The notes under the pieces were generated by a model. The model saw only the letters and a list, made by a program, of their open reading frames with translations. It had not been told where the DNA came from and ran no database searches. From NCBI GenBank assembly GCA_024226735.1, contig JAAELL010000481.1, positions 1 through 54,849 of the forward strand: a DNA stretch of 54,849 nt. Reading direction: 5' to 3'. The first letter of the stretch is position 1; each line of letters begins with the position of its first letter. The DNA comes from a bacterium. GTDB lineage: Bacteria; Planctomycetota; UBA1135; GCA-002686595. Of the stretch, positions 46,301 to 54,070 are shown in pieces. Made by a program: the position numbers and the translations under genes.

Positions 46301-46924
46301 CTACTGAACCTTCCGGTGGCCCTTCGGCGTCACCCAGAAGCGGCGGTCGGCGCGCTCCTGCACCAATCCGGCCCGCACGAGGGTGACGATGCCGCGGCGC
46401 GCGTTGCGCTGACCCATCTTGACGTCCTTCGTGATCTCGGAGAGCCGGGACGGGCGGGCCGCGATCGCCCGCAGAAGCTTGGTCAGCGTCTCGTCGAGCC
46501 GGACCCGCGCGTCGCCTGAGCGCTCCATCGCGCGGACCGTCGCGGCCCCCGCGGCGCGGGTCGAGCTGCCATCGCGGACGTAGACGAGTCCGCGGCCTCC
46601 GCTCTCCCAAACGCGCACCGGGCCCTGCGCGCGCGGGACGCGGACCTCGAGCAGCGTCACGCCCTCGGCGCGCCGCCGCGCGCACTGCACCGTCTGGGGC
46701 GGATCGAGGTGCGCCGCGACCCGCTCGATCGAGGCGCGTACCGCATCGGGATCGTCACAGCCGACGAGGCGTCCGTCATCGGCGACGCCGACCCAGAGCG
46801 TGCCCCCGACGCCGTTCGCGAAGGCGCAGATCGTGCGCGCGATGCGGTCGGCGCGCGGGAGCCGCACCTTCCATTCGCACTCGGGGCCTTCGGGAGCGAT
46901 CGAGGGATCTGGCATGCCGCGCAT
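46301..46924 (-). CDS. AlbA_2/Schlafen-type putative DNA-binding protein
   Basis: Taking ATG 46924 the product has 207 residues; ATGs at 46915 and 46942 are alternatives. The N-terminal domain reads ECEWKVRLPRADRIARTICAFANGVGGTLWVGVADDGRLVG, the AlbA_2 (divergent AAA-4) signature with the acidic residue and the FANGxGG loop. It continues with VYVRDGSSTRAAG. A C-terminal winged-helix-like part has LDETLTKLLRAIAARPSRLSEIT and NARRGIVTLVRAGLVQERADRRFWVT. Likely a DNA- or RNA-binding regulator. It is divergent from the DUF1294 gene with only 16 bp between the starts. Confidence 0.8.
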   Translation of the reverse strand: MRGMPDPSIAPEGPECEWKVRLPRADRIARTICAFANGVGGTLWVGVADDGRLVGCDDPDAVRASIERVAAHLDPPQTVQCARRRAEGVTLLEVRVPRAQGPVRVWESGGRGLVYVRDGSSTRAAGAATVRAMERSGDARVRLDETLTKLLRAIAARPSRLSEITKDVKMGQRNARRGIVTLVRAGLVQERADRRFWVTPKGHRKVQ

Positions 46925-46940
46925 GGTAGTTTGCCGCGTC

Positions 46941-47336
46941 ATGAGCCTACGCGCCCATCCCGTCCGTTCCTTCCTCGGGCTGTACCTCGTGCTCGTCCTC
47001 GCCCTGGCCTGGTTCCTCGCGCGTCAGCTCGGCGCAGGCGCCCCGGACGCATCGCGAGGCAGCACGCTCGGCACCTGGCTCGCCGCGTGGCTCATCGCGG
47101 CGAACGTGCTCGTCGTGCCATTCTGGGCGTGGGACAAGCGGCAGGCCATGCTCGACCGATTCCGCGTGCCCGAGGCGGCGCTGCACCTGTTCGCCGCGGC
47201 CGGAGCTGCCGCCGCCTCGCTCATCGCGATGCGGACGTTCCGGCACAAGACCCTCAAGCCCAAGTTCAAGCTTCTCTACTGGACGCTCCTGGGCGTCCAG
47301 GTCGCGCTAGTCGTCTGGTTGCTCCAGGCCACCTGA
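46941..47336 (+). CDS. DUF1294-family membrane protein
   Basis: A 131-residue protein from ATG 46941 with four hydrophobic helices. The family signature is seen in [35 protein letters not shown] and [10 protein letters not shown], where DK, RxPE and RHKT are conserved in DUF1294 (often fused to cold-shock domains elsewhere). No cold-shock domain is present here. Function unknown. The last 30 bp overlap the convergent DUF255 gene. Confidence 0.85.
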
Positions 47337-49592
47337 CGAGACCGACTCTTCCTCCTGCTCGAGCTGCTCGAGCGCCGCGAGCATCGTCGCGACGTCGGTC
47401 GTCGGCGCCTGGCAGGTGAAGTTTTGGCAGACGTACGCAGTCGCCTTGCCGTCGATCGCCTCCTGGGTCTCGGTGTACGGCACGAGCCGACTGATCGCCT
47501 TCGCGCCGGCACCACCGGCGGGTCGCACGACGACGACCTTGTTGGGCAAGAAACGATCGTTCAGGGCCGAGAGCATCGCGCCCAAGTCGTCCGCGGCGGG
47601 GTCCCCCGCGATGACGATCTCGAACGACGGCCCGACGAGGAAGTCGACCGCCAGCATCAGCTGCGTGTAGCTCTGGGGCTGGAGCGAGGTCTGACCCGCG
47701 AAGGCCTTGATCGTCTTGTCGGCGTACTCGTCGTACTTCGTGTTGCCGGTGAGGCGCGCCAGCCAGAGCAGGTTCATCACCGCGACGGAGTTGCCGGAGG
47801 GGATCGCGCCGTCGTAGCTCTCTTTGGAGCGAACGATCAGCTTCTCGCCATCGGTCGGCGACAGGAAGAAGCCGCCGCCCCTCTCGTCCCAGAAGCGCGC
47901 GATCATGTCGTCGGTCAGCGCGATCGCCTCCTCGAGGAAGCGCGGTTTCTGGGTCGTGGTGAAGAGCTCCAGCAGGCCGTGGGTGAAGAACGCGTAGTCC
48001 TCCAGAAGCCCGAGGTTGTCCGCCGCCCCACCGCGGTAGCTCTTCAAGAGGCGTCCGCGCTCGTCACGCAGGTTGCCCAGGACGAACTTCGCGGCGGCCG
48101 TAGCGGCGCGCTCGTAGTCCTCGCGCCCGTCGAACACGCGCGCGGCCTTGGCGAACGCGGCGATCATCAAACCGTTCCAGTCGGTCAGGATCTTGTCGTC
48201 CTTGAACGGATGGACGCGCGGCTCGCGCACCTCGAAGAGCTTGGCGCGGATCACCTCCATCTTGGCTGCGAGCTCCGCGGGTTCCATCCCGCGGGTGGGC
48301 GCGAGCTCGTCGAGCGTCTGCGAGAGGTGCGGGATGTTGTGGCCGGTCGCCTCTCCAGTCGCCTCCTCGCTGAAGTTGCCTTCCTCGCGGATGTTCCAGA
48401 CGGCCGCGGCGAGGGCGGCGTCGTCTTCGTCGAGCGCAGCCTTCAGCTGCTCGAGCGTCCACACGTAGAACAGCCCCTCGACGCCCTCCGAGTCAGCATC
48501 CTCCGCCGAGAAGAACCCGCCCTTCGGCGAGGTCATGTCGCGCAGGACGTAGGTGAACACTTGCTCGGCCGTCTCGCGGTACGCGTCCTTGCCGGTGACC
48601 TGCCACGCTTCGGTGTACGCGAGCGCCAGCAGCGCCTGGTCGTACAGCATCTTCTCGAAGTGCGGCAGGAGCCAGTTGGGGTCGGTCGAGTAGCGATGGA
48701 ACCCGAAACCGACGTGGTCCCAGATCCCGCCCTTGCGCATCGCCGCCAGCGTCGTCTCGACCATGTCGAGCGAGCTCAGATCGCCGCTCCGCGCGTGGTG
48801 GCGCAGCAGGAAGCGCAGGTTGTGCGGGATCGGGAACTTCATCTGCTCGCCGAACCCGCCGCGCTTGAAGTCGTAGGAGTGGCGCAGGTGCGAGTAGCAG
48901 AGCTCGAGCGTGCTCTCGCTCAACGCCTCGCCGGGCGTGCCGGACGACAACTTCGCCACGTGCTCGGTCGCTCCGCGCGCCACCTCGAGCACGCGCCGGC
49001 GGTCGTTCTTCCACGCGCCCGAGAGCTGCGGGACGAGCTCCATCATGCCGGTCCGCCCGTGGCGCCCCGCCCTGGGAAAGTACGTCCCCGCGAAGAAGGG
49101 CTGCTTGTCCGGCGTCATCAGCACCGTCATTGGCCACCCGCCACGGCCGGTCATCGCCTGCGTGACCGTCATGTACACCTGGTCGATGTCGGGGCGCTCC
49201 TCGCGGTCGACCTTGACGCAAATGAAGCTGTCGTTCATGAGCTTGGCGACCTCGGGGTCCTCGAAGCTCTCGTGCTCCATGACGTGGCACCAGTGGCACG
49301 TCGAGTAGCCGATCGAGAGGAAGATCGGCTTGTCCTGTTCCCTGGCGGCCTCGAACGCCTCGGCCCCCCACGCGTACCAGTCGACCGGATTGCGGGCGTG
49401 CTGCTGGAGGTACGGACTCTTGGAGTGGATGAGCCGATTGAACTCGTCGCCCCCGTCCTTGGGCAGCTTGGCGATCTCCTCGGAGCTCGGCAGCGGCTTG
49501 CGCACTTTGGGCTCGTGGTCTTGATCTTGGGCGGGGAGCGGACTGATCATCGCGAGAGCGAGGACCAGCGCGCGGGTGCGCGACGTCAGCAT
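47307..49592 (-). CDS. DUF255 thioredoxin-domain protein (YyaL / SSP411-like), exported
   Basis: A 761-residue protein from ATG 49592, chosen for the signal peptide (1-21, cleavage after PAQ or LPA) and a GAGAGG sequence 6-7 nt upstream. The N-terminal thioredoxin-like domain has [19 protein letters not shown] and the active site [14 protein letters not shown] (Cys99, Cys102), then [13 protein letters not shown] and [24 protein letters not shown] long glycosidase-like (alpha/alpha-barrel) region follows, ending with a short C-terminal segment containing [10 protein letters not shown]. It lies 34 nt downstream of the Trx-like selenoprotein gene on the same strand. A periplasmic location is suggested by the signal peptide, unlike the cytoplasmic homologues. 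Confidence 0.92.
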
Positions 49593-49626
49593 TCGAGGAC
49601 CTCTCGACATATGGCTCTCAGTGCTC

Positions 49627-50049
49627 TCAGGGGTTGGCGGGAGGGCTCTTGGCTTCGCCCAGAAGGCGCCCGATCGTCTTCAACAGATACGGCGGCGTGA
49701 CCGCCCCGGAGTAGCCGTCGAGGAAGTTCCCGTCGGCGTCTGCGAACAGAATGAACGGCAACATCATCGCGTTCTCCAGCTGGCTCGCGAGCGCCATGAC
49801 GCCCGGCTCGGACGCATCCGCGTCGGCGGCGAGCGCGACGAAGTTCTGCTGGAGGAGAGGTGCGACGTCAGGCCTGGGGACGACTCCCTCGACGAGGGAG
49901 CGGCATTGTCCTCAGAGCTCGCGACCGAACTCGATGAAGATCTTCTTGCCCTCGGCCTGCGCTTGGGCCTTGGCGTCTTCGAGGCGGGTGTGCCAGCTCA
50001 GCGTTCCGCGGTCGTCGAAGTGGGGATGGGGGGAGTTGTTGCCGGTCAT
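49627..50049 (-). CDS. Thioredoxin-fold selenoprotein with UGQC motif (Sec46 encoded by TGA 49912-49914)
   Basis: Read through the TGA at 49912-49914 the gene runs from ATG 50049 to TGA 49627 and encodes 140 residues of a thioredoxin-like domain. Before the [16 protein letters not shown], the second beta-strand with the active-site start. The active site is U46-G-Q-C49, so Sec replaces the first, attacking cysteine of CxxC. After it come [35 protein letters not shown], and [16 protein letters not shown] with the cis-proline loop (MLP) that faces the active site. No signal peptide is visible. A hairpin of SECIS type follows the UGA. It precedes the DUF255 thioredoxin gene by 34 nt, so they are probably co-transcribed. 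Confidence 0.9.
49884..49914 (-). promoter_or_regulatory. Bacterial SECIS element with UGA-Sec codon of the thioredoxin-like gene
   Basis: After the UGA (49912-49914) come 11 nt and then CUCCCUC and GAGGGAG, a perfect 7-bp stem (49884-49900) closing the loop GUC. The loop G lies 19 nt after UGA, within the range of known bacterial SECIS elements and aligned with the loop of the AhpD-gene element. The stem is coding at the same time (RSLVEGV). Confidence 0.82.
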
Positions 50050-52962: not shown

Positions 52963-54070
52963 CTACATCGTCCCGCGCGAGCGCAGGAAGGCTTCGATGA
53001 ACGTGTCGATCGCCCCGTCGAGAACGCCCTGGACGTTGCCGACCTCGACATTCGTGCGGTGGTCCTTGACCATCTGGTAGGGATTCAGGACGTAGGAGCG
53101 GATCTGGCTGCCCCAGGCGATCTCGCCCTTCTCCCCGTAAAGCTTGGCCATCTCGGCGTCACGCTTGCTCTCCTCGAGCTGGTTGAGCTTGGCCTGCAAG
53201 AGCTTCAGCGCCATCGCACGGTTCTTGTGCTGGCTGCGCTCGTTCTGGCAGCGCACCACGACGCCGGTCGGGATGTGCGTCATGCGCACGGCGGACTCGG
53301 TCTTGTTGACGTGCTGGCCGCCCGCTCCCCCCGCGCGCATCGTGTCGATCTTGATGTCGGCCTCGCTCAGCTCGACGTTGATGTCGTCGTCGACCTCGGG
53401 CGTCACGTCGACCGACGCGAACGCGGTGTGGCGCCGGGCCTGGGCGTCGAACGGGCTGATGCGGACGAGGCGGTGGACGCCGGTCTCGGCCTTGAGGTAG
53501 CCGAACGCGTACGGACCGCTGATGTGCAGGGTCGTACCGCGAATGCCGCCCTCGGTCTCCTCCTGGAGCTCGATCTGCTCGATGTCGAAGCCCCTGGCCT
53601 CGGCCCAGCGCAGGTACATGCGCATGAGCATCGACGCCCAGTCACACGAGTCGACCCCGCCCGCGCCGGCGCTGATCTGCAGGAATGCGCCGCTCTTGTC
53701 GTTCGGCCCGCCGAGCATGACCTGGAACTCGAGCGCGTCGAGGCTCTTGGTCGCGCGCGCGACGATCGTCGCGACCTCGTCGATGACTTCATCCTCGCCC
53801 CCCTCCTCCGCCATCTCGGCCAGGATGTCGAGCTCGTCGAAGCCCTGAGCCAGCTCGCGGATCGGGTCGACGACCGCGCGGACGGTCTTCATTTCCGCGA
53901 TGAGCTTCTTGCTCCGCTCCTGGTCGTTCCAGAAGTCGGGCGAGCTCTGCGCCTCCTCGATCTCCTCGTAGCGTTTCAGTCGATTCGGGTAGTCAAAGAC
54001 TCTCCATCAACTGATCGAGGCGGCCGCGGAGCTCCTTTCCAGTCTGGACGTGGTCGGCGAGGGTGGGCAT
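52963..54070 (-). CDS. prfB: Peptide chain release factor 2 with programmed +1 frameshift
   Basis: RF2 reads UAA and UGA and releases the peptide. Codons 1-25 run from ATG 54070 to CTT, then an in-frame TGA (53993-53995); a +1 slip at CTTTGAC continues the frame to the stop at 52963, giving 368 residues. After the shift comes [22 protein letters not shown]. Also seen: [32 protein letters not shown] (anticodon-like), [15 protein letters not shown] with the GGQ catalytic motif, and [10 protein letters not shown]. The CTTTGAC site is the same as in E. coli prfB. Full length and intact; the TGA is not an error. Confidence 0.95.
53992..53998 (-). promoter_or_regulatory. prfB programmed +1 frameshift site (CTTTGAC)
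   Basis: On the minus strand the sequence is GGAGAGTCTTTGAC, with the CTT slippery codon, TGA and a following C. The purine-rich GGAG lies 3 nt upstream of CTT and can act as the internal SD-like stimulator. RF2 shortage lets the ribosome shift +1 at this poor TGA context, giving autoregulation. Confidence 0.92.

Follow-up and report, generated by a model that had tools for sequence, protein, structure and literature searches.

A UxxC thioredoxin-fold gene interrupted by UGA in a planctomycete genome very probably encodes a selenoprotein

A short gene on a planctomycete contig (JAAELL010000481.1, assembly GCA_024226735.1) raises the question of whether an in-frame TGA ends its translation or is read as selenocysteine (Sec). 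The window, that is, the whole stretch of DNA that was analyzed, comprises 54,849 nucleotides. On its minus strand, at 49627..50049, a frame with an ATG start runs through 140 codons to a terminal TGA when the internal TGA is translated as U. That internal UGA, the proposed Sec, is codon 46 (49912..49914, minus strand) and takes the first position of a U-G-Q-C motif. A first-pass annotation, made from the letters alone, had proposed a 140-residue selenoprotein on this strand, with the TGA at the first position of a CxxC motif. Its coordinates, strand, frame, and length are all correct. That the window gene encodes a genuine UxxC selenoprotein is very probable.

The read-through protein has a thioredoxin fold, as the first-pass annotation had proposed. 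It scores 47 bits against the Pfam family Thioredoxin_7 (PF13899; cut-off 27), and score, fold, and CxxC motif column all place it in this family. Thioredoxin_2 (PF13098) also passes its cut-off of 27 with 31.2 bits, and Thioredox_DsbH (PF03190) passes the same value marginally (27.8 bits). The best Pfam match covers residues 19-105 and therefore crosses the TGA. An AlphaFold2 model built from 28 sequences is confident (pLDDT 91.3, pTM 0.86), and its best PDB matches are Thermus thioredoxin, proteins with DUF255/DsbH domains, and DsbD gamma. Two further residues, placed from the translation, are Cys49 (49903..49905, minus strand), the proposed resolving thiol, and Pro98 (49756..49758, minus strand) in an L-P-F loop, the putative cis-proline. 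Both are invariant in 28 aligned homologues of similar length (short forms), as are His8, Pro9, His10, Phe11, Asp13, Gly15, and Trp19. When codons were compared with five relatives, synonymous and amino-acid differences were roughly equal in number both before and behind the TGA, so the region behind it appears as constrained as the region before it.

Homologues show which residues can occupy the Sec column. An initial scan of genome contigs returned seven loci, titled Planctomycetota (four) and uncultured bacterium (three), and further searches covered 101 genomes of the order and 392 genomes of the phylum. Matches at E <= 0.001 occurred in 93 of the 101 order genomes, the weak ones being generic thioredoxin domains, and 39 of the 392 phylum genomes had matches at E <= 1e-14 (short and long, Sec and Cys forms pooled). 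The Sec column was read at 46 loci, from which four repeats were dropped (L020-L023, which equal L004, L006, L003, and L001 over the compared stretch). The resulting counts are without L046-L048 and weaker matches that have no locus, and they keep near-copies such as L002, L004, and L006, or L038 and L039. Among these 42 distinct loci, 28 carry TGA and 14 a Cys codon (TGC or TGT). Homologues with neither Cys nor Sec in this column, which the first-pass annotation had named as evidence that would speak against it, are thus absent from the set. The short-form alignment (17 sequences with TGA, 11 with a Cys codon) likewise has Sec or Cys at this column in 28/28. As a side observation, the genes at L036, L037, L038, and L039 end in two consecutive TGA codons, possibly to keep Sec from being inserted at the final stop codon.

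Behind the UGA lies a SECIS-like hairpin (49883..49901, minus strand), in which a seven-pair stem (49901-49895 / 49889-49883) encloses the loop CGUCG. If the C-G at the loop closes, the stem has 8 bp and the loop is GUC. The 7-bp hairpin with loop GUC that had been annotated 11 nt after the UGA is present, and corresponds to the upper part of this 8-bp stem, which begins 10 nt downstream of the UGA, its first pair being G.U. The window hairpin conforms to the bSECIS criteria given in PMC13188914, with a loop of 3-5 nt, a stem of 7-8 bp, a G within the first two positions of the loop, a distance of 17-18 nt from the UGA, and an energy of -12.8 kcal/mol. An Rfam search at the hairpin returned no family match up to E = 10.

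Across the TGA loci, the evidence that this hairpin exceeds chance is strong. All seven pairs of the family-register stem form in 27/28 TGA loci, compared with 0/14 Cys loci, and the exception (L040) retains 5/7. The same split was seen in the first set (20/21 TGA, 0/9 Cys) and in a hold-out of 12 later-fetched loci (7/7 TGA, 0/5 Cys). In the 21 TGA loci of the first set, where the seven pairs begin 10 nt behind the UGA, 98.6% of cells were paired and the covariation score was 0.600. Neither of these values, nor the number of doubly changed cells, was reached by any of 500 shuffles. Changes on both sides affected 5/7 pairs (reached by 11/500 shuffles), and ten further pair types were present (reached by 62/500). 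Registers slid by 1-3 gave 30-55% pairing in the same loci, and RNAalifold predicted the same seven-pair stem unprompted. The nine Cys loci, read in the same register, had 73.0% of cells paired versus 74.0% in shuffles, and no double changes.

The stem of the window gene, taken by itself, is not far beyond chance, and its weight is modest. Synonymous resampling, with the codon usage of one neighboring gene of the window, yielded the complete seven-pair stem in 4.3% and an equally low energy in 2.4% of draws. For single genes, a complete stem arose in 0.2% (L060) to 31% (L044) of draws, and for this reason the hairpin evidence is strong in the set and not in a single gene. At three of the Cys loci, L026, L033, and L035, hairpins of 6-7 bp still fold, shifted by one nucleotide relative to the family register. 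These may be traces of a lost SECIS, and they suggest that the hairpin could partly reflect coding constraint or recent loss of Sec.

Reading UGA as Sec also depends on dedicated machinery, the absence of which the first-pass annotation had named as evidence against its reading. The window's genome, a draft that is 88.8% complete and 3.3% contaminated, holds selA, selB, selD, and tRNA-Sec, all on other contigs than the window. SelA is on contig C32, together with a selD gene on the minus strand (G000:C32:5076-6023, L049) whose in-frame TGA, in the motif UAAK, occupies the known Sec site. The Sec motif of selenophosphate synthetase is listed as UxxK in PMC13188914. The tRNA-Sec on C32 scores 74.6 bits (cut-off 47), and ARAGORN also finds a tRNA-Sec. 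SelB was not found in this genome by a wing-2 domain model; a full-length model found it at full length on C28, with 364 bits. Of 35 genomes chosen from the 101 of the order, all 35 have SelA over the cut-off and 34 have SelB. The genome without SelB over the cut-off (G040) is a Cys-form genome. The Cys-form genomes among the 35 have SelA in 9/9 and SelB in 8/9, so in most of them a loss of Sec use does not account for the Cys form.

Together, the Sec/Cys column, the fold, the covarying hairpin, and the Sec machinery give computational support to the selenoprotein reading of the first-pass annotation. It is highly probable that the product is a thioredoxin-fold selenoprotein of the cytosol in which Sec is inserted via SelB and the hairpin, and which acts by disulfide exchange. 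In the living cell, SelB and Sec-tRNA-Sec would bind to the hairpin close behind the UGA, placing selenocysteine at position 46, and a failed insertion would stop translation at the UGA. By analogy with thioredoxins, the attacking residue is expected to be the Sec at the N-terminal position of UxxC, and the resolving one Cys49. The greatly raised reactivity that the first-pass annotation expected of such a Sec would follow from the general chemistry of selenocysteine. Sec46 would accordingly attack a disulfide, Cys49 would resolve the mixed bond, and a cellular reductant would regenerate the Sec46/Cys49 pair, as in a disulfide oxidoreductase. A cytosolic location is presumed, and no signal peptide was seen by eye in the window protein or the short forms.

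The neighboring genes may bear on what this selenoprotein does. Directly behind it lies a DUF255 (Thioredox_DsbH) gene of 767 codons (47307..49610, minus strand; PF03190, 260 bits). It has its own CxxC, is separate from the selenoprotein, and is a candidate partner. A gene with a Schlafen/AlbA_2 domain (46301-46942, minus strand; 67 bits) and then purH follow further on, while a sulfatase gene on the opposite strand, with prfB beyond it, lies upstream. A Schlafen/AlbA_2 homologue likewise stands between the DUF255 gene and purH at L076. A DUF255 homologue directly follows in 7/27 other loci (L002-L006, L076, and L077), and the flanking sequence fetched for the remaining 20 showed none. In five of the 27 (L001, L007, L066, L069, and L072), purH follows within 150 nt, and these five also have an upstream sulfatase gene on the opposite strand. 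The remaining loci have different neighbors. An additional neighbor listing based on ORFs, unreliable in this GC-rich DNA, gives no more than hints.

This arrangement is one reason to consider that the main job of the selenoprotein is that of a dedicated reductant of the DUF255 protein, or of a peroxide or sulfenate reductase. The first role would suit the DUF255 gene directly behind the Sec gene in the window and at seven other loci, and the second has a parallel in the Sec thiol peroxidases, which share the thioredoxin-like fold. The 20 loci with no DUF255 homologue in their fetched flanks argue against a dedicated reductant, and the distribution led us to reject DUF255 as an obligatory partner. 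A UxxC motif with a resolving Cys is, moreover, typical of disulfide exchange. We consider these other roles unlikely, but they keep some weight beside disulfide exchange.

Another neighbor, prfB, is itself subject to UGA recoding. It encodes RF2 (SPF motif; PCRF and RF-1 domains; 52963..54070, minus strand), lies approximately 3 kb upstream of the Sec gene in the window, and has a CTTTGAC +1 frameshift site with an in-frame UGA at 53995-53993. Two UGA recoding events, the prfB frameshift and the Sec codon, are thus found approximately 4 kb apart on one strand. The CTTTGAC site is present in 27/29 genomes. Of the 27 other loci, 10 have a same-strand prfB upstream. Seven genomes, from genera g3 and g4, have it directly upstream of the Sec gene on one strand, at 88-111 nt from match to match (L002-L006, L076, and L077, in G017, G025, G046, G013, G070, G088, and G058). 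The spacing is 1.8-3.2 kb in the window, G008, and G052. prfB within 5 kb was seen in 10/18 Sec-form versus 0/11 Cys-form genomes, several of these assemblies being fragmented. A tie between the Sec form and the closeness of prfB looked striking, and is not claimed because the linkage is one change, with a single origin, on the tree. With a UGA-frameshifted prfB directly upstream of a UGA-Sec gene, low RF2 would favor both recodings, and in one lineage the two genes might form a UGA-recoding unit in which RF2 repair and Sec insertion rise together. We give little credence to this idea, against which count both that single origin and the RF2 results given in PMC4513850. In vivo, a 12-fold rise of RF2 lowered Sec insertion only 2.5-fold; in vitro, a rise was essentially without effect on a long natural mRNA and abolished Sec insertion on a short model mRNA. 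PMC12421855, on prfB frameshifts, does not mention planctomycetes or selenocysteine.

The UGA could also serve mainly as a selenium-dependent switch, so that what counts is the 45-residue product, or polarity acting on the genes downstream. Genes do lie close behind the Sec gene, and UGA reading is selenium-dependent in general, as described in PMC4513850. The constraint over the full length behind the TGA and its repeated exchange with Cys argue that the full protein is the selected product, and a switch as the main function is very improbable.

Under the conventional reading, the TGA truncates the gene as an ordinary stop, a pseudogene mutation, or a sequencing error, and the downstream part is a relic or a separate product. 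The case for a selenoprotein is computational, which leaves this reading a hearing. We reject it as scarcely credible, since the TGA recurs in this one column across 28 distinct loci of different genomes, alternates only with Cys codons, and is followed by the invariant Cys49 and Pro98 and by a covarying stem. A general reassignment of TGA in which Sec plays no part would by itself fit the open frame, and is rejected as practically negligible because the SelA, SelB, DUF255, purH, and prfB frames have no internal stop, most genes of the family end in TGA, and prfB retains its UGA-dependent frameshift.

Within the family, the Sec form and the Cys form can be followed on a 39-row tree built with the Sec column masked, from which the distant Cys forms L059, L061, and L062, kept in the stem counts, were left out. 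The fewest changes of the Sec/Cys state are seven on the best tree and 5-8 in bootstrap trees. Well-supported branches make up 5/35 inner branches, and taken alone they force one change. The tree thereby lends weak support to an alternation of Sec and Cys forms among relatives. The state of the stem follows the Sec state in 38/39 rows; with one independent contrast on supported branches, this match is not a significance test. With this alternation, and with the family-register stem incomplete in the 14 Cys forms examined, the family lends itself to the study of how selenocysteine and its RNA signal are gained and lost. The finding adds a UxxC selenoprotein family that is unnamed in NCBIfam release 20. 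Gene callers that take TGA as a stop would cut its members short or miss them.

Thioredoxin-fold relatives of several kinds are available for comparison. The thioredoxin domains of DsbD gamma, DsbH, and DUF255 proteins share the fold and a weak sequence similarity with the window protein, but they use Cys and not Sec. These domains are mostly periplasmic or within larger proteins. Closer to the window protein are the long Sec homologues of the same phylum (L042-L045, L058, L060, and L063), which share the HPHF motif, UGxC, and the stem register (7/7). They differ in their length of 286-328 residues with a C-terminal extension, in their separate starred clade, and in the signal-like N-terminus seen by eye in most of them.

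In NCBIfam release 20, no model reaches its cut-off for the window protein. The same few models match the 28 short forms weakly, and each of the seven long forms has at most one weak match. The best match of the window protein (residues 18-72) is NF041199 (Trx7/PDZ), which 24/28 short forms also match at E <= 0.001. The window protein falls outside this family, with 29.5 bits (cut-off 300), UxxC rather than CxxU (as NF041199 is listed), 140 versus 390 positions, and no PDZ region. It likewise falls outside TsoB (NF045694; 20.7 bits, cut-off 805).

In the literature, a search by title and abstract returned no paper on this UxxC family. PMC4807772 was the one relevant paper returned on planctomycete selenoproteins, and its supplementary candidate list lies outside this comparison. 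The passages of PMC12013277 (deep-Sep) drawn on here mention neither planctomycetes nor thioredoxin. Table 1 of PMC13188914 (2026) lists prokaryotic selenoprotein families, of which it is said to hold 119, and has no entry for PF13899, DUF255, PF03190, or UGQC. It does include a PF13098 thiol:disulfide interchange selenoprotein, which, like the window protein, has Sec first in UxxC, and the window protein passes the PF13098 cut-off. Unlike this entry, which is known here from the table and not from the sequence of its representative, the window protein scores higher to PF13899, and its family has an N-terminal HPHF...D.G...W motif that is invariant in the short forms. The generic PF13098 UxxC entry could cover the window protein. 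UxxC thioredoxin-like selenoproteins are, by that table, already a known kind, and the family described here is an addition to it.
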